This document shows positions 3,292 to 31,279 of a stretch of 34,928 nucleotides of DNA, piece after piece. Origin of the DNA: Kiritimatiellia bacterium (lineage in GTDB: Bacteria; Verrucomicrobiota; Kiritimatiellia; RFP12; UBA1067); assembly GCA_017418445.1 (NCBI GenBank), contig JAFONM010000042.1:1-34928 (forward strand), given 5' to 3'. Numbering within the stretch: position 1 is the first letter of the stretch; each line of letters opens with the position of its first letter. A model generated the notes under the pieces. The model was not told the DNA's origin. It searched no databases and saw nothing but the letters and a program-made list of their open reading frames with translations. Both the position numbers and the translations under genes were made by a program.

Positions 3292-3836
3292 GAGCTCCGC
3301 GCATCGCGTTGACGGGAGGGATTGCCTGCGGCAAATCCCTCCTGTCTCGTTTTCTGAACGAGCTCGGCGTGGAGACGCTGGACGCCGACGACATAGTGCA
3401 CGAACTCGTGCCGGACGAAGAGCGCCGTCGTCTCGCGAAGATCGTCTTTGCGGATTCGGCAAGAAGGAAGGAGCTCGAGGCTCGCATCCACCCTCTCGTC
3501 CAGGCCCGAATCGAAGACTGGTTCTCCCGCCAGCCACCGGCCACTACCCTCCGTTTGGCGGTGATACCGCTTCTCTTCGAGGTGCACTGGGAGAAAAAAT
3601 ATGATATAATAGCGTGCGTCGTCTCTTCCAGGGAGAATCAGATCGCCCGGATGATGACGGCGCGCGGGTACTCCCGAGAAGAGGCCGAATCCAGGCTGGC
3701 TGCTCAGATGCCGGTCGAGGAGAAGGCGGAAAAATCCCAGTACGTGATAAGGAACGACGGTTCCGCCGCCGACCTCAGGAAGGAGGCGGCGAAGTTCGTC
3801 GCCTGGATCAAGGAGGTAGTGAGAAATGTCGGATGA
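3288..3836 (+). CDS. coaE: Dephospho-CoA kinase, unusually short
   Basis: Phosphorylates dephospho-CoA with ATP, the last step of coenzyme A synthesis, in the cytoplasm. I chose the GTG at 3288, which overlaps the secretin TGA (GTGA) and follows ggaag at about 3279. It gives 182 residues starting right before the P-loop ([10 protein letters not shown], residues 8-17). The DADD motif of the nucleotide/CoA site, the IHPLV motif and the PLLFE motif are present. Compared with E. coli CoaE, roughly 25 residues are missing between the DAD motif and the ...VFAD..RR segment, where the family normally has an EPG...FG...DG stretch. The frame is open and the rest is well conserved, so it is probably functional. 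The end overlaps rho by 11 bases. Confidence 0.9.
3602..3610 (+). promoter_or_regulatory. Possible internal extended -10 promoter for rho
   Basis: TGATATAAT lies inside coaE, about 215 bases before the rho start. It matches the TGRTAKAAT element found before four other genes in this window, and TATAAT should be rare in DNA this GC-rich. No recognisable -35 is present. The bases also encode an ordinary CoaE segment (Asp-Ile-Ile), so chance is possible. If active, it would give rho a leader of about 200 bases. Confidence 0.35.
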
Positions 3837-5430: not shown

Positions 5431-8400
5431 ATGAAGAAATCGGTTGTCGCCGTCTCATTGGCAATGATGGCGTCCGTCGCCGCGGCGAACATCACGTCGC
5501 GTGTCTACACGGGCAGCGAGGCCAATGTATTGCAGTTCCCGCAGCTGTGCTACACGAACGGCGCGCTTTGCGCGATCACCGACCCCGCGCAGAGGGTCGT
5601 CTCCCCGGTCGGGACGTTCGGGCGCGACGACTCGTCGTCGGAGCCGCTCGTCTTCACGAACACCCTGGTCTACACGGGATACGCGCTCGACGAGTGGATG
5701 CTCGTGCGCATGGAAGGCAACAATCCGCAGAACGTCCCCGCGCAGCTTTCCGACGCGCGAGTCTACACGAATCTCGCTTATTCGATGACCGGAAGTTCAG
5801 TTTCGATTCCGCAGAACGGCGGACTTTCCGGAATGGACGACTACATGGCCCTCGCCCCCGCCTTCTCGTGGCTGAAGTACCAGCTGCGCTACTGGAAGAA
5901 CGACGGGACGACGGTCTCGATGCAGGATGTCGATTTCTTCATATACACGAACGTCGTAACGGTCATGGAAAACCCGTGGACGAGATACGGCTACGATTTC
6001 CTCGGATGGTCGCCCGTCTCAAACACGACCGAGGTGGCGTTCACGAACAGGCAGACGGCGACGGGAGCCGATTTCGCCGCGACGACGAACGGCGTCAATC
6101 TGTTCGCGGTCTGGGACAGGATCATCGTCACCGTCTCGCTTGACGGCAACGGGGCGACCGAATCCTTCGAGCCGACTTCGCTTTCCGTGGGAGTCGGCGA
6201 CAGGTACGAGCTCCCCGCTCCCGTTCGCGAGAATTACACGTTCGCCGGATGGAGAAGCGCCAAGGCCGGCGGCATTCTTGTCACGAACGGTCAGGAAGTT
6301 ACGAACATTTCCATAACCAACCTGTACGCGCAGTGGGAGCTGGAAAAGTTCACCGTATCCGTCGGTTCGTCCAATCCGCGGTACGGCACGGTCAACGAGG
6401 CCGGCGACTATTTGCTCGATTACGGGGAAGCGCTCTACTTAGACGCTTTGCCGGCCGACGGATGCAGGTTCGACGGGTGGTCCGATGGCGTGACGAACCT
6501 GAGTCGGATGGTTACATGCGAATCGAACGCCGTCTACTGGGCGAACTTCTCTGTCGACACGGATTCCCTCAACACCCACGAGGCGGCGTCTTCGGCGTCC
6601 GCGGCCGGACCCGAAAAGACGACTGTATACTTCCTCGCAAACGGGGGGATCGGCGAGATGGAGCCTCAGACTCCGGACAATCCCGCATCGTTCGTCCTGA
6701 CCGACAGCACATTCACCGGCACATCCCCGTTCCTGGGCTGGGCGACGTCGTCCACGGCCACGGAGCCCGAATATGATGATTGCGCCGAGATGACGGATGT
6801 GGGACCCGGACCTCTCGTCCTCTACGCCGTCTGGCAGGGTGCAGGCGGCTCCGAGGCGTCCGCGACATGCGCCATTTGGTTCGACGCGAACGGAGGAACC
6901 GGCGTCACCGAGTCCGTGACGCTCACGGAGGGATATTCGACGACGCTTCCCTCCTGCGGATTCGGGAGGAGCGGATACGATTTTCTCGGCTGGGCCAAGA
7001 CCGCGGACGCCGCGACGAACGACCTCGCGGACGCCGCTACCGTAGATGCCATCGCCGATGTCGCATCCTCCGCCGATGCCGAGTGGTGCGTCCTCCACGC
7101 GGTCTGGGCGGAGTCCGCCGAAGAAGAGGGCGGCGACGGCACGAACGATCTGTCCAGGGCCGCGCATTCGAACATTGCGCTGACGGGAAGCGACTGGACC
7201 GTGTCGACCTACGATTCCGGTTTGGGCGAAGTCACGAATGGGATCTTCTGCACGACGAACGGCGCGCAGCTGACCGCCTCCGTGACGGGGCCCGGAGTTT
7301 GCGGCTTCACCTACGTGGGCGCGGCGAAAGGCGACACGCTGACGGTCTTCTTCACCGGCGGAAATCCGGCGAAGACGACCAAGGTGGACTGCGTCACGAC
7401 TGTCGACAACGAGGATATTCCGCAGCCCGTCGCGGTAACGACGAACATATCCATTGCCGGCAAGATCAGCGTCAGGTGGACGGCCTCGGCCGCCGATAGC
7501 CGCATCGACGGAATACGTTGGGATGAAGGCGGTTCGGGCGGAGAGTCCGTCGTGCTGAGCAATGCGATGTTCGTCGTTCGGAACGCGTCCTACGACGGAG
7601 AACCACACGTGGGCGTCGTGGAGACGATCGGCTGCGAACTCGAGTCGGAGGCCGGAAACGAGGCGACCGACCCCGGCAAGTATTCCGTGACTCTGCGACT
7701 TGGCGATGGGCGCTGCTGGCCCGATGGATCCACCAATTCGACGACGAATGTCGTCTGGTCGATCTCGGTTCCGAATTCGATCGCATACTTCCATGCATTC
7801 GAAGGGCTTTCGTGCGACAGTACGATGCAGACGGGCGTCGTCGCGATCGCCGGATGCGAAGTGGAGGAAGGAAACGTCGCCGCTGACGCCGGCGAGCACG
7901 TCGCGACGCTGAGGCTCGTCCCGGGCAGCCACTGGCCGGACGGCTCGACAGCCGCGACGACGAACGTCGCCTGGTCTATCGCCAGGGGCGGCGTCGACAT
8001 GTCCGGCGTGACGTTCTCCGACGCGGTGTTCGTCGCGACCAACGGGTATGCGTACGGAATCCGCGTCGACGGCGAGCTGCCTGCCGCCGTCACCAACGTC
8101 GTCTACGAAGGGAACGAAAAGACCGCGGCGGGCGAGTACACCGTCACGGCCACGTTCCTGGTCGACGAGGCGAACTACGTCCCGATCGATCCGTCCTCGC
8201 TTTCCGCGACGATGCGCCTGATCGCGCTCTTCGATCCCGATGCCGGAGTCGAGCCCGTCGAGGGAGACCTCCCGGCCGGCGCGATATCGTACTTCGACAC
8301 CAGCAAGGTCTACGACACCGAGGCGCTCGTTCCCGACCCCATGGCGATCCGGGACGCGTTCGCGCCCTACAGCCCTACGCGCAAGGTCCAGTTCTCGTAT

Positions 8401-10950
8401 TCGGAATCGGGTCCCTGGTCCAGCGCGCCGGTCGGGCTGACCGACGCCGGTACAACCGACGTCTGGTACCAGGTCGAGGTCTCGGATTCGGAAATGTTCA
8501 GGCACGCGATTCGCCTGACCGTGACGCCGCTGGACATAGCCTCTGCCGAGGCGGCCCTTGCCACGAACGAGTGGCTGTGGACCGGTTCCGAGATAGAGCC
8601 GGAACCGTCGTTGACGATAAACGGAAACGTGCTTGTCGAGGGGACGGACTACGAGGTCGCGTATTCGAACAACGTCGACGCAGGCACTGCGACCGCGACG
8701 ATGACGGGCATCGGCAGCTGCACCGGATCCGTTTCGGTCGATTTCGAAATCGTCACTGTCGAGTGCGACATGTCCGGCCTGTCGCTTGAGGACGCGGCGT
8801 ACATCTACGACGGAAAGATCAAGTCGCTTGCGGTCTCGGGTTCGCTTCCCGAAGGCGTGGCGGGCGTAACCTATCTGTACGACGGAGAAGAGGTCGCCGG
8901 CGTGACGGGGCCTGGCGAATTCGACGTGACGGCTGTATTCTCGTTCATGGCGGGATATCATGCCGCAGTCAGCAATCTGTCCGCGCAGCTCACGATCGCG
9001 AAGGACGCGAGCGAATACGACGGACCGCTCGCCACGGTCGGCGACTACTGCAGCTGGACCCTGCCGCAGCTGGGGGTCCCGCTCACGAACACGGTTCCGA
9101 CGACCACGTCGGTCTCCGTGAAGGGTCTTCCGGCCGGACTCAAGCTCGTGAAGTCCAAGGTCTACGGAACGGGCAGGAACAAGAAGAAGGTCGTCGGGTA
9201 CGACTATTTCGTCAGGGGCGTTCCCACGTCCGCCGTGGATGCGATGCGGCTTCCGATGTACATAGCGGTGAAGGACTCCTCGGGCACGACCTGGCATCCG
9301 GTCGAGTTCAACGTCGCGGCGCAGGAAGTCGCGGACCTCGGGCAGGATCTCGGCACCTGGATGGTCGGTGCGAAATTCGACGGAACGAACTGGCTCGCAG
9401 GGGTCGGGAGCGGATGGACGGTCTCCGGGCTCCCCACGGGGCTCAAGTACACCCCGAAGGCCATATACAGGAATTCCAAGAAGAAGTCGCTCGGCAGGTA
9501 CCCGGCCTTCTCCGTCTACGGAACCATGAAGGCTGCAGGACTCTTCACGATCACTGCGAAGAAGAAGAACTCCGCCGGATTCTACGTAACCAGGAGGTAC
9601 CGCGTCCTCGTGACGCCCAGGGACGTCTACGCAGACAGGTTCCCCGGGCTCGAGAACAGGACGCTCACCGCGTACGAGCCGTTCGCGACATGGACGCTGG
9701 CGGACGATGTCGCGTCCGCAGGCGGAAAAGTCACGGCGATTTCGGGACTGCCCGCCGGGCTCGGCGTGAAGTACGCCTACACGAACGCGAAGAAGAAGAC
9801 GGGCAAATACGCGGCAAGCATCTACGGCATGCCGACGAAGGCCGGAACGTTCGCCCTGACTTTCAAGAAGGGAACCGTCGCGCGGACCGTCCTCTGGGTC
9901 GTCGAGCCGTCGCCGACGGTGCCTTCGCTGGACTTCAACACCAACGGCGGCGTAACTATGAGCGCAAAGGCCGGAGTGAGGCAATACGACCTCCTTGCCT
10001 TCGCTGCGACTTCGAACGCCACGCTGACGGCGTCCGGACTCCCTTCGACGGTCAAGCTCGTGCGTCTCGCCGACGGGACGTGGGGCTTCGCCGGACGGGC
10101 GACCGCCGCAGGCACGTATCTCGTCACCGTCAAGGCGACATTGAACGGACGCTCCGCTGTCCAGCGCATGGCGCTCGAGTTCGAGGGACTCCCCGCGTGG
10201 GCCGTCGGATCGTACAACGGAATCGCGGGCGCGCTCGGCGACGATGTCGAATCCATTGACGACTTCGTGTCGTTCGACCAGATCGTCGCGACGAACGGAC
10301 TCGCCAGGGTCTCCGTCGCCTCGTCCGGAAAGATATCCGGAAGCTGCCGCTTCGCCGGAACGAACTGGACGCTGAGCGCGACCTGCTTCACCGGCTGCAC
10401 CGGCGACTGCTACGAGGCCACGAACCTTCTCGCCAAGGCGACGTATACGTATTATGTCAGGAATTCCAAGGGCAAGTCGGTGAAGAAGACGGGAACATCC
10501 GTTCGCTTCATGACGCTGCGCGTCCAGGAGAGCGACCTCGGCGAAACCGTCCGCGGAGCAGTCGTCGCATGCGAGAACGAGGGCGACGCCGGGTTCGGCG
10601 CAGAAGAATATCTCTGGACCGCGAACTCGAAGTACAAGGCTATCGGCAGAAAGCTCTTCTACACTTCCTCGAAGAAGCAGTACGTCGCCATGACCTTCAG
10701 GGGATCGAGCGAGACGGGCGCCGCGCTCGGACTCGCCGCCGACGAGACGCTCAAGATGAAGATTGCCGTCAGCGGCGTCGCGACTGCGACTCTCGTCAAG
10801 GGCAAGGCCTCCGCCACGTGCTCGACCGTCGTACTGCCCGCGACTCCGGCGGAAGACGGCTACGAGGCGTTCGTCGGCGGAGTGCCGTTCTATTTCGCGC
10901 CGGTCAAGGGCGGTATCGACGAACGCGCGGGCATGCTGCGGATAGAGTGA
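5431..10950 (+). CDS. Giant exported repeat protein with InlB-type B-repeats, MBG-like and Ig-like domains
   Basis: 1839 residues. A signal peptide (residues 1-19, ending AAA before Asn20) sends it to the envelope. Five Listeria-Bacteroides type repeats follow, recognised by their FLGW/FAGW/FDGW and (L/V/N)xAxW cores near residues 187-225, 269-305, 344-375, 434-475 and 516-570. Next come a unique region (about 585-700), two tandem WPDGST...TTNV.WSI units (707-851), and MBG-like segments opening with (V/C)DMSG (853-930 and 1110-1191) around a G-TDYEVAYSNNVDAGTA type module. Three Ig-like units (about 1199-1490) carry GLPAGLK...KKK...G(V/M)PT. A fourth unit lacks the lysines, and a C-terminal domain starts GSYNGIAGAL (about 1593). 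Such proteins are adhesins or surface structures. I see no LPXTG, PEP-CTERM or autotransporter barrel. It sits between rho and uvrA without evident functional linkage. Confidence 0.85.
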   Translation: MKKSVVAVSLAMMASVAAANITSRVYTGSEANVLQFPQLCYTNGALCAITDPAQRVVSPVGTFGRDDSSSEPLVFTNTLVYTGYALDEWMLVRMEGNNPQNVPAQLSDARVYTNLAYSMTGSSVSIPQNGGLSGMDDYMALAPAFSWLKYQLRYWKNDGTTVSMQDVDFFIYTNVVTVMENPWTRYGYDFLGWSPVSNTTEVAFTNRQTATGADFAATTNGVNLFAVWDRIIVTVSLDGNGATESFEPTSLSVGVGDRYELPAPVRENYTFAGWRSAKAGGILVTNGQEVTNISITNLYAQWELEKFTVSVGSSNPRYGTVNEAGDYLLDYGEALYLDALPADGCRFDGWSDGVTNLSRMVTCESNAVYWANFSVDTDSLNTHEAASSASAAGPEKTTVYFLANGGIGEMEPQTPDNPASFVLTDSTFTGTSPFLGWATSSTATEPEYDDCAEMTDVGPGPLVLYAVWQGAGGSEASATCAIWFDANGGTGVTESVTLTEGYSTTLPSCGFGRSGYDFLGWAKTADAATNDLADAATVDAIADVASSADAEWCVLHAVWAESAEEEGGDGTNDLSRAAHSNIALTGSDWTVSTYDSGLGEVTNGIFCTTNGAQLTASVTGPGVCGFTYVGAAKGDTLTVFFTGGNPAKTTKVDCVTTVDNEDIPQPVAVTTNISIAGKISVRWTASAADSRIDGIRWDEGGSGGESVVLSNAMFVVRNASYDGEPHVGVVETIGCELESEAGNEATDPGKYSVTLRLGDGRCWPDGSTNSTTNVVWSISVPNSIAYFHAFEGLSCDSTMQTGVVAIAGCEVEEGNVAADAGEHVATLRLVPGSHWPDGSTAATTNVAWSIARGGVDMSGVTFSDAVFVATNGYAYGIRVDGELPAAVTNVVYEGNEKTAAGEYTVTATFLVDEANYVPIDPSSLSATMRLIALFDPDAGVEPVEGDLPAGAISYFDTSKVYDTEALVPDPMAIRDAFAPYSPTRKVQFSYSESGPWSSAPVGLTDAGTTDVWYQVEVSDSEMFRHAIRLTVTPLDIASAEAALATNEWLWTGSEIEPEPSLTINGNVLVEGTDYEVAYSNNVDAGTATATMTGIGSCTGSVSVDFEIVTVECDMSGLSLEDAAYIYDGKIKSLAVSGSLPEGVAGVTYLYDGEEVAGVTGPGEFDVTAVFSFMAGYHAAVSNLSAQLTIAKDASEYDGPLATVGDYCSWTLPQLGVPLTNTVPTTTSVSVKGLPAGLKLVKSKVYGTGRNKKKVVGYDYFVRGVPTSAVDAMRLPMYIAVKDSSGTTWHPVEFNVAAQEVADLGQDLGTWMVGAKFDGTNWLAGVGSGWTVSGLPTGLKYTPKAIYRNSKKKSLGRYPAFSVYGTMKAAGLFTITAKKKNSAGFYVTRRYRVLVTPRDVYADRFPGLENRTLTAYEPFATWTLADDVASAGGKVTAISGLPAGLGVKYAYTNAKKKTGKYAASIYGMPTKAGTFALTFKKGTVARTVLWVVEPSPTVPSLDFNTNGGVTMSAKAGVRQYDLLAFAATSNATLTASGLPSTVKLVRLADGTWGFAGRATAAGTYLVTVKATLNGRSAVQRMALEFEGLPAWAVGSYNGIAGALGDDVESIDDFVSFDQIVATNGLARVSVASSGKISGSCRFAGTNWTLSATCFTGCTGDCYEATNLLAKATYTYYVRNSKGKSVKKTGTSVRFMTLRVQESDLGETVRGAVVACENEGDAGFGAEEYLWTANSKYKAIGRKLFYTSSKKQYVAMTFRGSSETGAALGLAADETLKMKIAVSGVATATLVKGKASATCSTVVLPATPAEDGYEAFVGGVPFYFAPVKGGIDERAGMLRIE
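7549..7983 (+). repeat. Two tandem protein repeat units of about 72 residues in the giant surface protein
   Basis: Unit one (about 7549-7764) and unit two (about 7768-7983) share the pattern GVV...GCE.E.GN.A.D.G...TLRL..G..WPDGST..TTNV.WSI. Similarity is clear in protein but diverged in DNA, so this is an old duplication. The WPDGST and TTNV segments are the best landmarks. Confidence 0.75.
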
Positions 10951-15755: not shown

Positions 15756-15785
15756 TTGACATAAAGCACATAAAATTGATATAAT
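15756..15785 (+). promoter_or_regulatory. Near-consensus housekeeping promoter before ribH
   Basis: TTGACA (15756-15761), an 18-base spacer, then TGATATAAT (TATAAT at 15780-15785), so both a -35 and an extended -10. Transcription should start near 15792, giving a leader of about 31 bases to the ribH ATG. It probably drives the whole operon to 21113. Confidence 0.85.
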
Positions 15786-21115: not shown

Positions 21116-21124
21116 TGGTATAAT
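21116..21124 (+). promoter_or_regulatory. Extended -10 element giving a leaderless transcript
   Basis: TGGTATAAT ends seven bases before the A of the ATG at 21131, so the expected +1 is that A. There is no Shine-Dalgarno sequence and no TTGACA-like -35 at 16 to 18 bases. It starts three bases after the stop codon of the DsbD-like gene. Confidence 0.8.
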
Positions 21125-21130
21125 ACGCCC

Positions 21131-21739
21131 ATGTCACAGGAATGGAACATCAGGTCCCGTGGACACTTCTGCAGCATCTGCCAGAAGCCGCTCGTGGACC
21201 ACGCTCCCGTAATAAGCGCGCTCAGGGAAACGCCCGAAGGATACGAGCGCTTCGACTGCCACCCGGAATGCTGGAAGACGGCCGAGCGCGACTGGGAGCC
21301 GTTTTCGCAGTGGGACGGAGTCTATTTCGCGCCGGTCAAGGTCGAGAAGAAGGAGGCCCTCAAGAAGGAGGACGCCGGGGAGCTCCTCAGGAAGCTCATG
21401 ACGCTCGACGATCCGGCGATGAAGAACGTCGTCTACGTCCTCGCCGTGATGCTCGAGCGGTCCAAGATCCTGGTCGAGCGCGATTCGAAGGAGCAGAAGG
21501 ACGGCACCATACGCCGCGTCTACGAAGACCGCCGGCAGGGCGACACTTTCGTCATACTCGATCCGCGCATCCGTCTCGAGAACATCGGCGAGGTCCAGCA
21601 GCAGGTCGTAGCGCTTCTTTCCGGAACCAAGACTCTCGGAGAAGTCTCCAGCGAGGAGGAATCCTCGGAGGCTTCCGAAGGGGCCGCGGAGTCCGGAGGA
21701 GCGGAGACGGCCGATGCGACTGACACCACGACAGCGTGA
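21131..21739 (+). CDS. Uncharacterised protein with N-terminal Cys-rich zinc-binding motif
   Basis: 202 residues. The N-terminus (WNIRSRGHFCSICQKPL, then YERFDCHPECW) places Cys14, Cys17, Cys43 and Cys47, with His12 and His44 nearby, as likely zinc ligands. The pattern resembles a family seen widely in Planctomycetes and Verrucomicrobia (from memory), of unknown role. The middle is charged and helical. The C-terminus from about 170 is a Ser/Glu/Ala-rich disordered tail. The end overlaps the SNF2 helicase gene by 26 bases, so the two are co-translated. The start is set by the leaderless promoter just before it. Confidence 0.75.
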   Translation: MSQEWNIRSRGHFCSICQKPLVDHAPVISALRETPEGYERFDCHPECWKTAERDWEPFSQWDGVYFAPVKVEKKEALKKEDAGELLRKLMTLDDPAMKNVVYVLAVMLERSKILVERDSKEQKDGTIRRVYEDRRQGDTFVILDPRIRLENIGEVQQQVVALLSGTKTLGEVSSEEESSEASEGAAESGGAETADATDTTTA

Positions 21740-24062
21740 GGCCCTCGAACTCATTGCGGACGGGCGGATGTATCCGACCTTCGTCCGCGAGGAGGACGGC
21801 TGGCACGCCCGCTGGCGCGCGCTGGGCGGCGACAATCCATGGGTGGACACTTTCGTCCGCGAGGCGGCGATAACGCCGCTCTCCCGCAACGCCGAGGACC
21901 AGAGGCACGAGACTCTCCACGACGCCTGGCTTGTGGCGCTGAGGAGCGAGACCGGACTTGTACGCTGGGACGACGCGGAATGTGAATCTTTCGCCGCGGA
22001 GATAGCGGAATGGAACGGCGCGGCGGACGACGGGGAATCGGCCAGGAGGTCGCTCGTCTTTCGCTTCGAGGCGAAGGGGGAAGAGGATTTCTCCATAACC
22101 TGCGAAATCCCGAAGGGACGCCGCGCCCTGCGCGCGCTCGGCCAGGCGACCTACGTCTTCGGTCCGCTCAGGGCGATGTCGGGAAGGGGCGGACTTCTCT
22201 CGGTCGCGCTCTCGCGCGCCGAGGCGGAAAGCTTCCTCCGCCGCGGTGCGCGTGAACTCGCGCTCGCCGGATATGGCGTCGAGGGAGTCGACCTGTCCGC
22301 ACTGATCGAGGCGGAAGTGGAACTCGAGTCGCAGGAATCGGCGGCGGCCGGATCCGAAGTCCCGGCAAGGCTCGTCGTCCACGTGGACGGCGAGGCGGTG
22401 TCGGCGGAGGAGATACGGTTCCTGCTGGAACAGAAGTCGACGCTCGTGTTCTTCCGCGACCGCTGGATAGAGGTGGACCGCAACATCCTCAAGGAGGCGC
22501 TCCGGGCGCTCGAGAAGAACGAAACCCGGAAGCTCTCCGTCAACCAGGCACTTGGCTTTGCCTGTGGAATCGGCGCCGTCGGAAGGATGGCGATCGACAA
22601 GGCCCGGGCGCACGGATGGCTGCGCGGACTCGTCGAGGAACTCCGCCGGAAGATATCCGCGGCGTCGGAAGAGAAACCCGTCCGCGACAGCGTGGCGGAG
22701 ATCCCGGGACTCGCCGGTTCGCTCAGGCCGTACCAGCGCCGCGGCGTCGCGTGGATGCGGTTTCTCACGGAGTGCGGATTCGGCGCGCTTCTCGCGGACG
22801 ACATGGGCCTCGGCAAGACGATACAGACAATCTCGTGGATCCTTTCCGGACGGCGCACGAAGGGCCGTCCCTGTCTCGTGGTCGCGCCGGTCACGCTCGT
22901 CTCAAACTGGAGGCACGAATTCGCCAGATTCGCCCCCGGGCTCAAGGTGATGGTCCATCACGGCGCGACCCGCGCCACCGAAACTCTCTTCAGGCGGGAG
23001 TCCGCGAAGGCGGACGTCGTGCTCACGGCCTATTCGCTCCTGGTGAAGGACTACCAGATGCTTCGCGGCGTCGAGTGGGGCGGAGTCGTCCTCGACGAGG
23101 CGCAGGCGATAAAGAATCCCGACACGCGCGTCGCGCGCGCGGCATGCGCACTTGGCGCGCCGAGGCGCATCGCGCTCACCGGCACGCCCGTCGAGAACTC
23201 GGTCGCGGACGTGTGGAGCATCGAGAACTTTCTCAATCCGGGATTCCTCTCGGACCGCAGGTCGTTCGTCGAGCGGTTCGTCAGGCCCATCGCGGCGGAC
23301 GAGAAATCCGCCGCGGCGAAGAGGCTCCGGCACGCGCTCGAGCCGTTCGTCCTCCGCCGTCTCAAGAGCGCGCCCGAGATCGCCGCGGAACTCGGCGAGA
23401 AGCGCGAGATACGCGAGTACTGCGCGCTTGCGGCGGACCAGCGCCGCGAGTACGAGGAGGCGCTCGCGGACTACCGCGCGACGGAGCGGAGCCGCGGCGA
23501 CGTGTTCGCGCTCATAACGAAACTGAAGCTCGCGTGCGACGGCACCGGAAAGATCGAGCGGCTCCTCGAGCTCGTCGAATCGATTTTCGAGGCGGGCGAG
23601 AGCGTCCTCGTGTTTTCGCAGTACGCGAAGGTCGGCGCGAAGCTCAAGGCGGTCCTGGACGAAAGGTTCGGCGGGCCGACTCCGTTCCTCCACGGCGCGC
23701 TCGCGGCGAAGGACCGCGAGAGGGAGATCGAGAGGTTCAACGAGGGCGGGCCCAAGGCCTTCGTCCTGTCTCTGAGGGCGGGAGGATTCGGACTCAACCT
23801 CGTGAAGGCTACGCACGTCGTCCACTTCGACCGCTGGTGGAACCCCGCCGTCGAGTCGCAGGCGACGGACCGCGCGCATCGAATCGGACAGACGAAGACG
23901 GTGTTCGTCCACACGTTCATAACCGAGGGGACGCTCGAGGAGCGTGTCGACGAAATACTCGAGACGAAGTCCCGCGTCGCGGGGACGCTCGTCGCGGGCG
24001 GCGAAAGCTTCCTGATGGATCTGAAACCCGAGGAGCTCGAGGAGGCGCTGAAGCTTGAGTAG
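21714..24062 (+). CDS. SNF2-family helicase (HelZ/YwqA type)
   Basis: DNA-dependent ATPase/translocase of superfamily 2. 782 residues. The N-terminal third is an accessory region; the stretch around residues 225-290 (LEQKSTLVFFRDRWIEVD, LSVNQALGFA) fits the bacterial SNF2-associated domain. The ATPase core has DDMGLGKT (Lys368), DEAQ (461-464), LTGTPVENS and, in the second lobe, VFSQYAK, FLHGALAAKDRE, LSLRAGGFGLNL and QATDRAHRIGQ. A SWIM zinc-finger gene follows directly, as in the Bacillus ywqA-ywqB and mycobacterial helZ neighbourhoods (known pairing, function unclear). A ggag at 21702-21705 precedes the ATG; the start lies inside the preceding gene. Confidence 0.95.
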   Translation: MRLTPRQREALELIADGRMYPTFVREEDGWHARWRALGGDNPWVDTFVREAAITPLSRNAEDQRHETLHDAWLVALRSETGLVRWDDAECESFAAEIAEWNGAADDGESARRSLVFRFEAKGEEDFSITCEIPKGRRALRALGQATYVFGPLRAMSGRGGLLSVALSRAEAESFLRRGARELALAGYGVEGVDLSALIEAEVELESQESAAAGSEVPARLVVHVDGEAVSAEEIRFLLEQKSTLVFFRDRWIEVDRNILKEALRALEKNETRKLSVNQALGFACGIGAVGRMAIDKARAHGWLRGLVEELRRKISAASEEKPVRDSVAEIPGLAGSLRPYQRRGVAWMRFLTECGFGALLADDMGLGKTIQTISWILSGRRTKGRPCLVVAPVTLVSNWRHEFARFAPGLKVMVHHGATRATETLFRRESAKADVVLTAYSLLVKDYQMLRGVEWGGVVLDEAQAIKNPDTRVARAACALGAPRRIALTGTPVENSVADVWSIENFLNPGFLSDRRSFVERFVRPIAADEKSAAAKRLRHALEPFVLRRLKSAPEIAAELGEKREIREYCALAADQRREYEEALADYRATERSRGDVFALITKLKLACDGTGKIERLLELVESIFEAGESVLVFSQYAKVGAKLKAVLDERFGGPTPFLHGALAAKDREREIERFNEGGPKAFVLSLRAGGFGLNLVKATHVVHFDRWWNPAVESQATDRAHRIGQTKTVFVHTFITEGTLEERVDEILETKSRVAGTLVAGGESFLMDLKPEELEEALKLE

Positions 24063-24648
24063 GAAGAAGCGGTATCCCCTTAGGATTCCGAGGTCCGCCT
24101 CGGGGATCCGCGCGCAGGAGACGCGCGGCGGTTCGGCTCGCAGCTGGTGGGCGAAGAAGTGGCGCACGGCGCTCGAGCGGATGGGCGGACTCCTCGGCCG
24201 GTTCGGCCGCGGCAGGAACTACGCGATGTCCGGACAGATCGTGTCGCTGGGCATGGAGGGTCCGCACGTGGAGGCGACGGTCGTCGGCAGCCGTCCGGAT
24301 CCGTACAAGGTCACGATCAGCTTCCGCGCCCCGGACGACGCGGCGCACGACCGGATCGTCGCGGCGCTGAGGGCGGAGCCGATGCTCGTCGCGCGGCTTC
24401 TCACGGACGACCTTCCGCTGGAGGTCGAGGCGATATTCCGCAGGGAGGGCTTCGACCTCTTCCCGGGGGGGAAGATCGCCGAGAGGGTCTACGACGTGAC
24501 GACGAAGTGCTCGTGTCCCGACTGGGCGAACCCCTGCAAGCATTCGCTCGCGGTCCTCTTCATTCTCGGCGAGGAATGCGCCTGGCGTCCTGCGACGCTG
24601 CTGGAGCTTCGCGGAATTACGATGGAGGAGCTTTGCGATGAAGATTGA
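24055..24648 (+). CDS. SWIM zinc-finger protein, partner of the SNF2 helicase
   Basis: 197 residues. The SWIM motif CxC...CxH is visible as Cys152, Cys154, Cys161 and His163 (CSCPDWANPCKH). The N-terminus is basic with SARSWWAKKWRTALER, a hallmark of the bacterial SWIM family linked to SNF2 helicases; RGRNYAMSGQ is also typical. The start is a TTG at 24055 overlapping the helicase stop; the next Met would cut off the WWAKKW segment, so TTG is preferred. SWIM domains bind DNA or proteins. The C-terminus ends soon after the SWIM motif, and an overlapping small ORF in the next frame may hold the rest of the tail. Confidence 0.88.
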   Translation: MSRKKRYPLRIPRSASGIRAQETRGGSARSWWAKKWRTALERMGGLLGRFGRGRNYAMSGQIVSLGMEGPHVEATVVGSRPDPYKVTISFRAPDDAAHDRIVAALRAEPMLVARLLTDDLPLEVEAIFRREGFDLFPGGKIAERVYDVTTKCSCPDWANPCKHSLAVLFILGEECAWRPATLLELRGITMEELCDED

Positions 24649-24799
24649 GTCGCCGGTCCTAAAGCGCCTCGGCCCCGTTCCGTTCTGGCGCGGCGAGTCC
24701 CGCTGCCTCGACTCGCTCGAGGCTATCTACAGGCGCGCCGCGGAAAAGGCGCAGAAGGCCCTCGCGAAGAAGGATGCCAGGCAAAGGGGAAAGCCATGA
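24638..24799 (+). CDS. 53-residue ORF, possible split-off tail of the SWIM protein
   Basis: ATG at 24638, TGA at 24797-24799; frame shifted relative to the SWIM gene, overlapping its last 11 bases. ggaggag (24624-24630) lies seven bases upstream. The protein starts MKIESPVLKRLGPVPFW and continues with SLEAIYRRAAEKAQKAL, then a Lys/Arg-rich end. The LGPxPFW then L..(I/V)YRR pattern recalls the C-terminal tail of longer SWIM proteins in other phyla (from memory). It may therefore be a separately translated tail, or the result of a frameshift. No other gene occupies this stretch on either strand. Confidence 0.6.
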   Translation: MKIESPVLKRLGPVPFWRGESRCLDSLEAIYRRAAEKAQKALAKKDARQRGKP

Positions 24800-24840: not shown

Positions 24841-24849
24841 TGATAGAAT
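24841..24849 (+). promoter_or_regulatory. Extended -10 element giving a leaderless transcript for the DUF4011 helicase
   Basis: TGATAGAAT, with the expected +1 at 24856, exactly the A of an ATG. An earlier in-frame ATG at 24850 would lie upstream of the transcription start and cannot be used. No Shine-Dalgarno sequence and no evident -35. The spacing of six bases between hexamer and ATG is the same as at 21125-21130. Confidence 0.75.
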
Positions 24850-24855
24850 ATGTCC

Positions 24856-27800
24856 ATGGAAAAGTCTCAAGACGGAAACACGCGCAGCCTCGACGCAGCG
24901 GCGACTGCGCGGGTCGCGCGCTGGACGCAGAAGCTCCTCGACCTTTCGGCGCGCAACAGGCTCCTCAACATCCCCGCGAAATCGAGCGCCATTCTGCACC
25001 TCGCGCCGATCGACGTCGCGAAGCTCGAGGACAGCCTTGCGGCGCGCGAATCGACCCCCGTCCCGAAGGTCGCGGAAGACCTCGACGAGAAGACCGTCCA
25101 GAAGCGACTCCTTTCGCTCATGCGCGATTCGCGGCGCGCGATGGAGGAGACGGGCTCCAACACGCTCTTCCTGACTCTCGGCGAACTCGAGTGGATGGAG
25201 GAGGCGTCCTCGTCCAGGGGCAAGGTGCGCCGCGCCCCGATCCTGCTCGCTCCGGTCCGTCTCGAGCGCGCGTCCATCGCCGAAGGCGTGAGGATGCGGC
25301 TTCTCGACGAGGAGACGATTCTCAACGCGACGCTCGTCGAATTCCTCAAGGCGCAGTTCTCCATCACGGTCGAGGGACTCGATCCGCTGCCGACGGACGA
25401 TGCCGGCGTCGACGTTCCGCGCGTGATCGAGACGTTCCGCAGGGCGGTCCAGGCAAAGCCCGGCTGGTCCGTCACCGAGGACGCGACGATCGGACTCTAC
25501 TCCTTCGGCAAGTTCGTCATGTGGAAGGACCTCACGGCGCGCGAATACGAGCTGAGGCGCAATCCGCTGGTGAACCACATCGCATCTGGCGGCGGACGCT
25601 TCGACGACGGAGTGAAGGTTTTCCCCGCCGAGGACATCGCGACGAACATCACGCCAGGCGAACTGTACTGCCCCGTCGCCTACGACTCGTCGCAGCTGAC
25701 GGCCGTCCTCTGGTCCGGACTCGGCAAGACGTTCGTGCTCCACGGACCGCCCGGCACCGGAAAGTCCCAGACGATCACGAACATCATATCCCACAACCTG
25801 GCCCGCGGCCGGCGCGTCCTCTTCGTCTCCGAGAAGAAGGCGGCGCTCGACGTCGTCAAGAACCGCCTGGACAGGGTGGGCCTGACCCCGTTCTGCCTCG
25901 AGCTCCATTCGACAAAGGCCGAGAAGGCCGAGGTCTACGGACAGATCAGGGAGGCGCTCCAGGTGAAGGCTTCGGAGATGCCCCGCGCCTGGAAGACGCA
26001 GATCGCGGAATTCGATTCGATCGAATACGCGCTCGAGGGATACGTCGGCGAACTGCACAGGAGATATCCGAACGGCATGACGCCCTACGACGCACTCGCC
26101 CGCGCGATCTCGCGGCAGGGGAGCGGCACCGTCCCGTCGGGTCTGATCGACGTCGACCTCCTGGCGCAGTCGGAGTCCGCGCGCATCGCAATGCGCGACG
26201 CGCTGTTCGAGCTCTCCACGGAACTCGCCGGCGTTTCCGCAGGAGCGCTTTCGGCGACGCCGGAACTCAAGGCGGCGGACTGGACTCCGATTCTCGCGCG
26301 CGATCTCGCGCTCGCGCTGGATGCGTTCGCGAAGGCTGCCGAGAAGACCTCCGCTCCGGACGACGTCTTCGGACAGGCGAAGGCCCTGGCGGCGGAGCTT
26401 GCGGAATGCGAAAAGGCGTTTTTCGCGGTCCGCTTCTTCAGGCGCCGCGGAATCGAGAAGAGGATTGCAGAGCTCGACGCGAAGACGGGCGCCGATCTGA
26501 GAAATGCGAAGGCGAGGCTCGCCGAATTCGTCGTGCCGGAATTCTTCGAGGGCGGACTCTCCGACATCGCCGGGCGCTGCCGCGCGTTCGGTCCTGTCGC
26601 CGGCGAACTTCGCGCCGTCATGCGCGCGCGAAAGAGCCTCGCGGCGGCGCGCGCTGCCGGAGCGGAAAAGATGGCGGAGTGGCTCGTCGCGAATCCGGAT
26701 CGCGGAGACGTCGGCGAATTCTTCGACGACGTCTATGCGGCGCGGATGCTCGAGCAGGTCCTCGCGTCGACCCCCGTCCTTTCCGGATTCGCCGGACTCT
26801 CCCAGGAGAAGCGCATCGAGAGGTTCCGCGAGCTCGACGCGAGCGGAAAGGAGCTCGCGAAGAAGGCCGTCTTCTCGAAGCTCGCGGCAAGGATAACGAC
26901 GCTGATGGGCGGGGCCGGCCCCGCGGCGAAGGAGCTCGCCGTCCTCAAGCGCGAATGCGAGAAGAAGCGTCGGCAGAAGCCCGTGAGGACGCTGCTCTCG
27001 GAATGCCGCGAGCTGCTCCCGACGCTCAAGCCGTGCTTCCTGATGAGTCCGCTTTCCGTCGCCCAGTACCTTCCCGTCGACGCCGCGAAGTTCGACCTCG
27101 TCGTCTTCGACGAGGCGTCGCAGATTCCGGTATGGGACGCAATCGGCGTGATCGCGCGCGGCAGGCAGCTCGTCATTGTGGGCGATCCGAAGCAGATGCC
27201 GCCGACTTCGTTCTTCCAGAAGGGGGACGTCGAGAGCGAGGAGGTGATGGACGACGACGACCTGACGTTCGAGGACCAGGAGTCGATCCTGGACGAATGC
27301 CTCGTCGCCGGCGTCGCGCCCGCATACCTGAGCTGGCACTACAGGAGCCGCCACGAATCGCTCATCGCGTTCTCCAACGAGCACTACTACGGGGGGAAGC
27401 TCTCGACCTTCCCGTCCGCGAGCGACTCGCCGCGCCTGGGCGTCAGGTTCGTGCACGTCAAGGACGGACGCTTCGACAAGCCCAGGAAGGGGCCGAAGGT
27501 CAACGAGGTCGAGGCGAAGGCTCTCGTCGACTACATCGCGACGGAGGTCAGGAAGCCGGACTGGAAGAAGCGCTCCATCGGCGTTGTCGCGTTCTCCATC
27601 ACGCAGCGCAAGCTTATCGCGGACCTTCTCGAGGAGCGCCGTGCGGAGGATCCGGAGCTCGAGAGGCTCATCCCCGACGACGGGACGGACGAGGGATGCT
27701 TCGTAAAGAACCTCGAGAACGTGCAGGGCGACGAGAGGGACGTCATCCTCTTCTCGGTCGGCTATGCGCCGGATTCCGCCGGACGCTTCGCGATGAACTT

Positions 27801-28341
27801 CGGTCCGCTGAACCTTGCGGGCGGAGAACGCCGCCTCAACGTCGCCGTCACGCGCGCGAAGGAGCAGATCGTCGTCTTCTCGTCAATCCGCGCGGCGGAC
27901 ATCGACGCCGGCGAGGGCGGACGCGCGAAGTCCGTCGGCGCCGGACACCTCAAGGCCTTCCTCGAGTACGCCGAAAAGGCCGACAGGCAGGGGTGGACCG
28001 CCGCCGCGGGAGGGTCCGCGGGAGGCGACGGACAGTCCGAATTCGCGGACACGGTCGCGAAGTTCATCGAGTCGAAGGGATGGACCGTCGACCGCAACGT
28101 AGGCCGCTCCGGACTCAGGATCGACATCGCGGTGCGCGATCCGGACGACCCGACGCGTTACATCCTCGGCATCGAGTGCGACGGCTCGGCCTACGCGCGG
28201 CAGAAGACCGCGCAGGACCGCGACGTCAACCGCATAGGCGTCCTCAGGGGACTTGGCTGGAACATGGTTCGCGTATGGAGCGTCGACTGGGCGCTCGATC
28301 GCGCCAAGGCGGAGGCGGGCCTGCTCGCCAGACTGAAATGA
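24856..28341 (+). CDS. DUF4011-type SF1 helicase fused to a Vsr/MTES_1575-like nuclease
   Basis: 1161 residues from the leaderless ATG at 24856. The N-terminal region (about 12-230) has the DUF4011 hallmark WTQKLLDLSARNRLLN. The helicase has Walker A GPPGTGKS (297-304), motif II DEAS (752-755), motif III GDPKQMPPTSFF, and late motifs NVQGDERDVILFS and LNVAVTRAKEQIVVFSS. A long helical region of about 370 residues separates Walker A from motif II. The C-terminal nuclease (about 1060-1160) has Asp1090 (RIDIAVRD) and Glu1107-x-Asp1109 (GIECDG), then ARQKTAQDRDVNR and GLGWNMVRVWSVDW, as in the MTES_1575 (Vsr-like PD-(D/E)xK) family. The order DUF4011-helicase-Vsr matches a single-gene antiviral system named hhe (from memory). 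A housekeeping role is not excluded. The next gene overlaps by ATGA. Confidence 0.85.
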   Translation: MEKSQDGNTRSLDAAATARVARWTQKLLDLSARNRLLNIPAKSSAILHLAPIDVAKLEDSLAARESTPVPKVAEDLDEKTVQKRLLSLMRDSRRAMEETGSNTLFLTLGELEWMEEASSSRGKVRRAPILLAPVRLERASIAEGVRMRLLDEETILNATLVEFLKAQFSITVEGLDPLPTDDAGVDVPRVIETFRRAVQAKPGWSVTEDATIGLYSFGKFVMWKDLTAREYELRRNPLVNHIASGGGRFDDGVKVFPAEDIATNITPGELYCPVAYDSSQLTAVLWSGLGKTFVLHGPPGTGKSQTITNIISHNLARGRRVLFVSEKKAALDVVKNRLDRVGLTPFCLELHSTKAEKAEVYGQIREALQVKASEMPRAWKTQIAEFDSIEYALEGYVGELHRRYPNGMTPYDALARAISRQGSGTVPSGLIDVDLLAQSESARIAMRDALFELSTELAGVSAGALSATPELKAADWTPILARDLALALDAFAKAAEKTSAPDDVFGQAKALAAELAECEKAFFAVRFFRRRGIEKRIAELDAKTGADLRNAKARLAEFVVPEFFEGGLSDIAGRCRAFGPVAGELRAVMRARKSLAAARAAGAEKMAEWLVANPDRGDVGEFFDDVYAARMLEQVLASTPVLSGFAGLSQEKRIERFRELDASGKELAKKAVFSKLAARITTLMGGAGPAAKELAVLKRECEKKRRQKPVRTLLSECRELLPTLKPCFLMSPLSVAQYLPVDAAKFDLVVFDEASQIPVWDAIGVIARGRQLVIVGDPKQMPPTSFFQKGDVESEEVMDDDDLTFEDQESILDECLVAGVAPAYLSWHYRSRHESLIAFSNEHYYGGKLSTFPSASDSPRLGVRFVHVKDGRFDKPRKGPKVNEVEAKALVDYIATEVRKPDWKKRSIGVVAFSITQRKLIADLLEERRAEDPELERLIPDDGTDEGCFVKNLENVQGDERDVILFSVGYAPDSAGRFAMNFGPLNLAGGERRLNVAVTRAKEQIVVFSSIRAADIDAGEGGRAKSVGAGHLKAFLEYAEKADRQGWTAAAGGSAGGDGQSEFADTVAKFIESKGWTVDRNVGRSGLRIDIAVRDPDDPTRYILGIECDGSAYARQKTAQDRDVNRIGVLRGLGWNMVRVWSVDWALDRAKAEAGLLARLK

Positions 28342-31205
28342 AGACAGGCGAAAACAAGCACGGATTCAGGATCGAAAGCGTCGCGGAGCTTCCGGACGTG
28401 GGCGGCCGCCTGTGGCGGATGACGTACCTGAAGAACGGGGCCGACCTCCTGTGGCTCGAGCGCAAGGACGACGTGAAGACCTTTTCAATCGTCTTCAAGA
28501 CCCTGCCCGACGACGAAACCGGCGTCGCGCACATCTTGGAGCATTCGGTCCTGGCCGGCTCGCGCAGGTATCCCGTCAGGAGTCCCTTCGAGGAGATCCG
28601 CAAGAGCTCCCCCTGCGTCTACATAAACGCGTCGACCGGGCGGGACATGACGGACTACTATTTCTCGACGCGCAACTCCGCCGACTTCCTGAACCTGGCG
28701 GACGTCTACCTCGATGCGGTCCTGCATCCGCTGTCGGTCTCCGGTCCGAGGGGATTCCAGCAGGAAGGCTGGCACTACGAGATCGACCCGGAGACGGGTG
28801 CGCTCTCGTACAACGGCGTCGTCTACAACGAGATGCGCGGCGTCTATGCGGAGCCGGGCTCCATAGCGTTCCGCGAGGTCATGAACGGACTCTATCCGGA
28901 CACCGTCTACGGACGCGACTCCGGCGGGACGCCGGGGAAGATTCCGAGCCTTACGTGGGAGCGCTACAAGGACTTCCATGCCAGGTTCTACCATCCGTCC
29001 AACGCCCACTTTTTCCTCGACGGATCCGTCGACATCGACGCGACGCTCGCGAAGATCGATTCGTTCCTGCGCGACTACGACCGCCGTTCGGACTTCACGG
29101 ACATTCCGCTCCAGCCTCCGTGCCGCGCGGAAAGGACCGTCGAGTATCCGTCGGCGACGACGGAGGGGAAGACGCTCCTCTGCCTGGGCTGGTCGGCCGG
29201 CACGAGCGACGATCCGTCCCTCTATCCGGCGCTCTGCGTTCTCTCGGAGTATTTCTGCGGCTCGAACGAGTCCCCGCTCAAGCGCGTCCTCCTGGAGCGC
29301 GGCCTGTGCGAAGACGCGAGCCTGTTCTGCTGCGACTATCGCCAGAATGCGCTGATCATGTTCCTGCGCAACGTCGCGGACGGCAGGGCCGGCGAATGCG
29401 AAGAGGCGGTGCGCAGGACTCTCGAATCCGAAACCGCGAAGGGCCTCGATGCGAAGCGCATCCTCGCGATCATAGACAGCTCCGAATTCAGCGAGCGCGA
29501 GATGGCGGGATCGTATCCGAGGGGGCTTTCGTACCTCGACTGGGCTATGCGCTTCTGGTGGTGCGGCATGGATCCTGCGGAGGCGTTCAGGATCACGGAG
29601 AAGTTCGCGCGCCTGCGGGCCGACGCGAAGAGCGGCCGGCTCGAGAGGATCGTCAGGGACTGCATCTTGAAGAACTCGCACTCCGCGAAGATCGTGCTCG
29701 CCCCGTCGACCACGCTCGCGGGACGTCTCGAGAAGGAGGCGAAGGAGGAGATGGACCGTCTCGCGAAGACGCTCTCCGCGGCAAGCCTGGCGCACATCAG
29801 GGCCGACGCCGCCGCGCTCAAGGCGTACCAGAAGGAGAAGGATTCTCCCGAGGACCTCGCGAAGATTCCCCATGTCGCCGTCGCGGACCTCGATCCGGTC
29901 GGTCCGCGCATCGGCGGCAGGACAGGCGAACGTGACGGCGACACGTACATCGTCGCGAAGGCGCCGGTGGACGAAATCGCGTATCTCACGCTGTGCTTCC
30001 CGGCGGACTTCCTGGACGGGACGCGGCTTCTCGAGGTGCCTATGCTCTCGCGTCTCTTCTGCAAGCTCGCGACCGCGAAGCGCGGGGCGCTCGAGCTTCA
30101 GACGGAAATCGACACGGCGTTCGGGCGCTTCGGCGTCTGGCCGTCCGCCGACGAACGCGGCAACTTCATCCGCGTCGACACGGCCTTCCTGAAGAAGAAG
30201 TTCGAGAAGGCGCTTCCGCTCCTCCGCGAGGTGGTCATGGAGACGAGGTTCGACGACGTGGCGGCGATAGCGAAGGTCCTCCGCCAGTCGACGGAGTCCG
30301 CGGAACGCGCCGTGTCCTCGAACGGACAGTCCGCGGCGATCTGTTCTTCCGCCGCGGGGTTTGCGAGAAAATGCGCGTCGCGCGACGTCATGTCCGGACT
30401 CTCCCAGCTCCGCTGGCTTCAGGGTGCGTGCGCGGACGAACGGTTTGCCGGGGAGCTCGCGTCGCTCAGGCGCGACATCTTCACGCGCGGCGGACTCGTC
30501 GTCGCGCACACGGACAACCTGACTGAGCGCGAAGTCGCGTCGGTCGTGGAATGCTTCCCGAAGTCCGCGACGGAGAAGTCCGGGACGAAGGGCGACGTCT
30601 CCACGGCCTTCGCGGGGTGGAAGCTGCGCCCCCGGGGTCTGCAGGTTGCCGCCGACACGGGATATTCCGGATGGGCCGCGCACGTACCGGGAGCCTGCTG
30701 CGGTTCGATGCGGGTCGCACTGAGGATGCTCTCGCTCGGATTCCTCCATCACGAGGTCCGCGAACTTGGCGGAGCCTACGGCGTCGGCGCATGCGTCCGC
30801 CGCGGCGACGTCCTGGAGGGTTATTCCTACCGCGATCCTTCGCCGCTGAAGTCCCTTTGCAGATTCCCCGAGATGGCCAGGGCGATCCGCGACTTCGCGA
30901 AAGGCGGCGAATCCGTCGACCGCTACGTGGTCTCCACGATGTCCCAGATCGACCCCTACAGATCTCCGGCCGACGAGGCGCAGCGTCCGCTCGGGACGTA
31001 TCTGGCGGGGGAGACCCAGGAAGACGTCGACCGCATGCGCCGCGAGGTCCTCACGACGACGAAGAAGGATCTCCTTGCCGCGGCGGAAATGCTGGATGCC
31101 GCGGAGAAGACTGCGCAAAGCTGCGCCGTCGGGGACGCCAGGCGCCTTGCGGACCTGCCGCCGGATCTGATCGAACCGGTCGTCGGCGGAGCGCAGCGGA
31201 GCTAG
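28338..31205 (+). CDS. M16C (presequence protease / PreP-like) zinc metallopeptidase
   Basis: Degrades peptides inside a closed two-half chamber. 955 residues, the usual size for PreP. The inverted zinc motif HILEH is at 65-69 (His65, Glu68, His69) followed by SVLAGSRRYPVRSPFEE, and the distal zinc Glu165 is in YNEMRG. The C-terminal substrate-binding signature LGGAYGVGACVRRG...SYRDPS is intact, so both halves look functional. No signal peptide, so it is probably cytoplasmic. The ATG overlaps the helicase stop (ATGA) with no good Shine-Dalgarno sequence, so translation should be coupled to the helicase. A functional link to that gene is not known. Where family members have N-A-M-T-Y-P-D-K, this reads NASTGRDMTDYY, a local change near the active site. 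Confidence 0.93.
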   Translation: MKTGENKHGFRIESVAELPDVGGRLWRMTYLKNGADLLWLERKDDVKTFSIVFKTLPDDETGVAHILEHSVLAGSRRYPVRSPFEEIRKSSPCVYINASTGRDMTDYYFSTRNSADFLNLADVYLDAVLHPLSVSGPRGFQQEGWHYEIDPETGALSYNGVVYNEMRGVYAEPGSIAFREVMNGLYPDTVYGRDSGGTPGKIPSLTWERYKDFHARFYHPSNAHFFLDGSVDIDATLAKIDSFLRDYDRRSDFTDIPLQPPCRAERTVEYPSATTEGKTLLCLGWSAGTSDDPSLYPALCVLSEYFCGSNESPLKRVLLERGLCEDASLFCCDYRQNALIMFLRNVADGRAGECEEAVRRTLESETAKGLDAKRILAIIDSSEFSEREMAGSYPRGLSYLDWAMRFWWCGMDPAEAFRITEKFARLRADAKSGRLERIVRDCILKNSHSAKIVLAPSTTLAGRLEKEAKEEMDRLAKTLSAASLAHIRADAAALKAYQKEKDSPEDLAKIPHVAVADLDPVGPRIGGRTGERDGDTYIVAKAPVDEIAYLTLCFPADFLDGTRLLEVPMLSRLFCKLATAKRGALELQTEIDTAFGRFGVWPSADERGNFIRVDTAFLKKKFEKALPLLREVVMETRFDDVAAIAKVLRQSTESAERAVSSNGQSAAICSSAAGFARKCASRDVMSGLSQLRWLQGACADERFAGELASLRRDIFTRGGLVVAHTDNLTEREVASVVECFPKSATEKSGTKGDVSTAFAGWKLRPRGLQVAADTGYSGWAAHVPGACCGSMRVALRMLSLGFLHHEVRELGGAYGVGACVRRGDVLEGYSYRDPSPLKSLCRFPEMARAIRDFAKGGESVDRYVVSTMSQIDPYRSPADEAQRPLGTYLAGETQEDVDRMRREVLTTTKKDLLAAAEMLDAAEKTAQSCAVGDARRLADLPPDLIEPVVGGAQRS

Positions 31206-31270: not shown

Positions 31271-31279
31271 TGGTATAAT
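31271..31279 (+). promoter_or_regulatory. Extended -10 element just before gyrA
   Basis: TGGTATAAT; the expected +1 is 31286, two bases before the ATG at 31288, so the leader is 0 to 2 bases. No Shine-Dalgarno sequence and no clear -35. The 82-base gap before gyrA (31206-31287) otherwise holds only a weak 6-base inverted repeat (31230-31235 with 31257-31262). Confidence 0.78.

Follow-up and report, generated by a model that had tools for sequence, protein, structure and literature searches.

Among the known systems close to the protein considered here are the giant MTES_1575-type proteins, which carry HEPN, transglutaminase, SF1 helicase, Vsr REase and wHTH modules, the last of which overlap with DUF3320 (PMC3710099). 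They share with it the SF1 helicase and the Vsr-family nuclease, and likewise have no modification enzyme. Among curated models, three come nearest: ProA (NF058533, antiphage_ProA, in NCBIfam), the candidate system PDC-S37 in PADLOC, and Hhe (NF042953 in NCBIfam, PDLC02194 in PADLOC). ProA and PDC-S37 have a core of DUF4011, SF1 helicase and MTES_1575 nuclease in common with the protein described below, and the core domain order of Hhe is identical. A literature search returned papers that name DUF4011, MTES_1575 and Hhe; it found no paper on PDC-S37 and no primary paper for ProA. A DUF4011 protein is also encoded by a core gene in every P. aeruginosa isolate, where it flanks a defence hotspot (PMC10250203), so that DUF4011 alone is no proof of defence and a housekeeping role within the superfamily is possible.

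A compact member of this group is encoded by a rumen Kiritimatiellae bacterium, in the window analysed here (the whole stretch of 34,928 nucleotides). The gene is an open frame of 1161 codons on the forward strand, running from the ATG at 24856 to the TGA ending at 28341, as the initial annotation had placed it. Pfam detects a DUF4011 domain (aa 26-164, 24931-25347, E 1.2e-30), the AAA_11/AAA_12 SF1 helicase domains, and a C-terminal MTES_1575 REase domain, a Vsr-type PD-(D/E)XK nuclease (aa 1063-1160, 28042-28335, E 4.4e-28). This is the order read earlier from the letters alone, and the motifs named at that time are likewise all present: Walker A or motif I, GPPGTGKS (aa 297-304, 25744-25767), Walker B or motif II, DEAS (aa 752-755, 27109-27120), and the nuclease residues D1090, E1107 and D1109, which had been judged intact. 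In the alignment of homologs both helicase motifs, D1090 and D1109 are invariant, and E1107 is kept in 35 of 40. At the 264 columns that are invariant across all other full family members the protein differs at only four, each time conservatively (A to S twice, R to K twice), which argues that it is not a decaying copy. The gene is thus intact and under purifying selection, with strongly constrained catalytic motifs.

The best curated match of the protein is to ProA, at 1266.6 bits against a cut-off of 1500, followed by Hhe at 756.8 bits against an equivalog cut-off of 2000. The PADLOC models rank in a similar way, with PDC-S37 at 1024 bits (a raw score, taken without PADLOC's own coverage rule, from a match that leaves about 210 C-terminal profile positions uncovered) ahead of Hhe at 552 bits. 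A full-length relative from the sister lineage, L026, reaches 1786 bits with ProA, above the cut-off, and only 763 bits with Hhe. Because ProA and PDC-S37 outscore Hhe and the full-length relative passes ProA only, the protein can be assigned to the ProA branch; its shortness explains why it misses the ProA cut-off. The initial annotation had named Hhe as the matching architecture. The match is strong but partial, Hhe forms a separate branch of the superfamily, and membership was rejected, since the protein and its full-length relative both fall far below the Hhe cut-off.

The most obvious difference from ProA is one of size, as the ProA profile spans 1903 positions and the protein only 1161 aa. 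Profile positions 343-405, 446-891 and 1098-1721 are matched; positions 1-342, 892-1097 and 1722-1903 have no counterpart. The protein therefore lacks the N-terminal region of about 345 aa, a middle stretch of about 200 aa, and the C-terminal DUF3320/wHTH region, and the gene has no N-terminal extension that could encode the first of these. In another relative, L032, the N-terminal region is weakly transglutaminase-like (E 0.02-0.24), and the HEPN, transglutaminase and wHTH modules of the giant proteins are all absent from the protein studied here. The same compact form, again without DUF3320/wHTH, is seen in L002, which is 62% identical and lies at a different genomic site; L003 and L026 retain the C-terminal module. 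In the tree, the compact pair is sister to the full-length L025 and L026 (support 99/96), and most other members of the surrounding clade carry DUF3320. This nested position makes the compaction most likely a secondary loss of modules, although parsimony requires a minimum of three changes per module and does not give their direction. Compact members that start near DUF4011 recur in the Kiritimatiellae, with scores below the curated cut-offs.

The AF2 model (28 sequences, pLDDT 83, pTM 0.77) is that of a UPF1-like SF1 helicase. Its best PDB match is Dna2 with 5'-overhang DNA (5ean; Z 22.4, rmsd 5.0, 513 aligned residues), which is tied with UPF1 (Z 21.5) and IGHMBP2 (Z 21.4) because all three lie within about one Z unit. 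A Dna2/UPF1-like helicase fold, with its motifs, is thus present in the predicted structure. The arrangement around that fold differs from that of Dna2. Dna2 has its nuclease N-terminal to the helicase, whereas here a Vsr-type nuclease follows the helicase and DUF4011 lies ahead of motif I. The whole-model alignment, which spans residues 11-1045, had suggested that DUF4011 might be no more than the 1B barrel of a UPF1-like helicase. When DUF4011 was folded alone (aa 1-270, pLDDT 83), its best PDB match reached only Z 2.5 and Foldseek gave no hit at E<=0.001, and this reading was dropped, though failure to find a match is no disproof.

The gene appears to have its own promoter, as proposed in the initial annotation. 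An extended -10 element, TGATAGAAT, occupies 24841-24849, with a gap of 6 nt between it and the ATG; a search upstream revealed no canonical -35. A second in-frame ATG lies at 24850, and 24856 is the better start because the -10-like TAGAAT ends at 24849. The corresponding motif, TGRTAKAAT, occurs five times in the window against 0.11 expected, each time just upstream of a gene start (3602-3610, 15777-15785, 21116-21124, 24841-24849 and 31271-31279, all on the forward strand). In the relatives that were fetched, an ATG follows within 30 nt at 74% of 179 sites, compared with 31% at random, and a spacing of 6-8 nt is commonest. These spacings argue for a private promoter, for the start at 24856 and for leaderless transcription, which is the likely mode for this gene and is probably common in these Kiritimatiellae.

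The SNF2/SWIM helicase cluster that the initial annotation had noted beside the gene is real. It comprises a 202-aa protein with no Pfam match, an SNF2 helicase (DUF3670) and a SWIM protein (21131-24648, forward strand), and it is syntenic and conserved across the family, with SNF2 in 109 and SWIM in 104 of 115 same-family genomes. A 53-codon frame at 24638-24799 on the forward strand overlaps the end of the SWIM gene and recurs in the same place in more than ten relatives at about 62-80% identity; it has no family match. The order of these four genes is kept in many relatives that lack the DUF4011 gene, with variation in what comes next, and in one genome (G049) a 51% homolog of the DUF4011 protein follows the SWIM gene, with SNF2 not on the same stretch. 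Being nearly universal, and syntenic without the DUF4011 gene, SNF2 and SWIM were rejected as parts of a defence system. The cluster has the look of a core process, and its genes are of a housekeeping rather than a defence type.

The wider surroundings fit the weak island context suspected from the start. The genes around the DUF4011 gene in the window include rho, uvrA, phosphofructokinase, mazG, dsbD and gyrA, and there is no tRNA in the window. The neighbours of clade members are also housekeeping genes; no more than 3 of the 75 had a PADLOC match at E<=1e-15 (a tally, which does not speak to enrichment), and a second set of neighbours gave scattered single hits. The gene behaves as a lone insertion between conserved chromosomal genes and not as a member of an island, in keeping with the single-gene character first ascribed to it. 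Between rho and uvrA lies a gene for an 1828-aa protein with Listeria-Bacteroides (Flg_new) repeats (5464-10950, forward strand), likely a large surface protein. Elsewhere, in L023, L032, L033 and L041, ProA-type proteins of another clade (about 1638 aa) are followed by a gene for 218-235 aa that overlaps by 4 nt, and then by genes for about 206 and 366 aa, a run that is possibly a conserved operon.

The DUF4011 gene is much less widely distributed than its neighbours. Homologs were found in 59 of the 115 same-family genomes, many of which are incomplete MAGs (two of these carriers, G013 and G020, are counted at only about 1e-7), in 30 of 61 genomes of the genus, and in 17 of 29 that are at least 90% complete. 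Their positions differ, and the universal, syntenic pattern of a housekeeping gene, which the initial annotation had regarded as fatal to a defence role, was thus not seen. Even in the closest relative the gene occupies another site, adjoining RND-efflux-type and other genes. Comparison with gyrA argues that the gene has been transferred, including across genera. In G000, G100 and G081 gyrA is 89-93% identical and the DUF4011 genes only 58-62%, while in G079 and G042, which belong to different genera, the DUF4011 genes (79.4%) are more similar than gyrA (73.5%). Plasmid records that carry relatives of the protein number 432, and 220 of these plasmids are predicted to be conjugative. An origin on phages was rejected, in that a nucleotide search of phage records gave no match, IMG/VR gave no confirmed relative (in a search suited to close relatives only), and tblastn against a phage collection gave a single, unannotated record.

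We consider it probable, by a modest margin of belief, that the gene encodes a mobile, compact, single-gene helicase-nuclease of the ProA/PDC-S37 branch that acts as an innate anti-phage or anti-plasmid effector. Helicase and nuclease activity, the substrate and the anti-phage action are inferred here; defence is plausible given the family to which the protein belongs, its intact catalytic residues and the patchy, transferred distribution of its gene. The original suggestion of a single-gene defence system is partly supported: the patchy, transferred distribution and the anti-phage character of the best models speak for it, while no island surrounds the gene and the curated cut-offs are missed. 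In the proposed mechanism, the UPF1/Dna2-like motor would load on invading or replicating DNA at a free end, a flap or a single-stranded stretch and translocate at the expense of ATP, DUF4011 would aid substrate binding or coupling, and the C-terminal Vsr-type PD-(D/E)XK domain would nick or cut the DNA during unwinding. Discrimination would presumably be by DNA structure and not by sequence, because there is neither a wHTH domain nor a modification partner. Since the N-terminal and DUF3320/wHTH modules are missing, the activity of full-length ProA may not carry over. A stronger version of the model, somewhat less likely to be right than wrong, is that the DUF4011-helicase-Vsr core is a self-sufficient, minimal ProA that recognises and destroys invading DNA by itself.

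The helicase fold also invites a different role, that of a bacterial Dna2-like helper in DNA repair or replication, which would process flaps and ends and be gained and lost among strains with no part in defence. The nearness of the fold to Dna2, UPF1 and IGHMBP2, the housekeeping neighbours and the core status of the P. aeruginosa DUF4011 protein (PMC10250203) are all in its favour. We nevertheless regard it as unlikely, as roughly half of close relatives lack the gene, which has shifted between genomic sites and crossed between genera, and the models that match best are anti-phage ones. A less likely idea again is that the protein is a crippled relic of full-length ProA, whose sensor and DNA-binding modules were truncated to leave a core inactive in defence. 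This idea draws on the three unmatched profile segments, on the position in the tree beside full-length proteins within the DUF3320-bearing clade, and on an end branch of 0.49, against 0.26 for the sister L002. Decay is difficult to reconcile, however, with 1161 codons that remain open, only four conservative changes at the invariant columns, a retained promoter, the same compact form at a different site in L002, and the recurrence of compact members in the class.

The downstream peptidase gene, noted earlier and now identified as PreP/M16C-like by Pfam (28338-31205, forward strand), raises the further prospect of a nuclease-protease pair, in which the helicase-nuclease would work with the M16 peptidase and the latter would activate or dispose of a partner. 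The start codon of the peptidase gene overlaps the stop of the DUF4011 gene (ATGA, 28338-28341), and this 4-nt overlap probably means that the peptidase is translationally coupled to the DUF4011 gene. Nuclease-protease pairs have indeed been reported in antiviral immunity (PMC12799240), but with a protease of another, trypsin-like fold. Moreover, in relatives the full-length PreP homologs and the DUF4011 gene are on separate contigs, and PreP adjoined none of the inspected DUF4011 loci, the nearest approach being a weak M16 match some 7.6 kb away in L038. A functional pair is thus highly improbable, and the function of the peptidase is probably unrelated to the DUF4011 protein.

The preferred reading, a compact defence protein of the ProA branch, probably amounts to a smaller form of a known kind of phage defence. 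One practical implication is that curated cut-offs that depend on length miss compact members in rumen Kiritimatiellae. If the core is indeed self-sufficient, discrimination would have to be supplied by DUF4011 and the motor. A natural core-only form of ProA allows the modules for cutting to be told apart by experiment from those for sensing. The case thereby separates the parts of a large and poorly understood anti-phage family.
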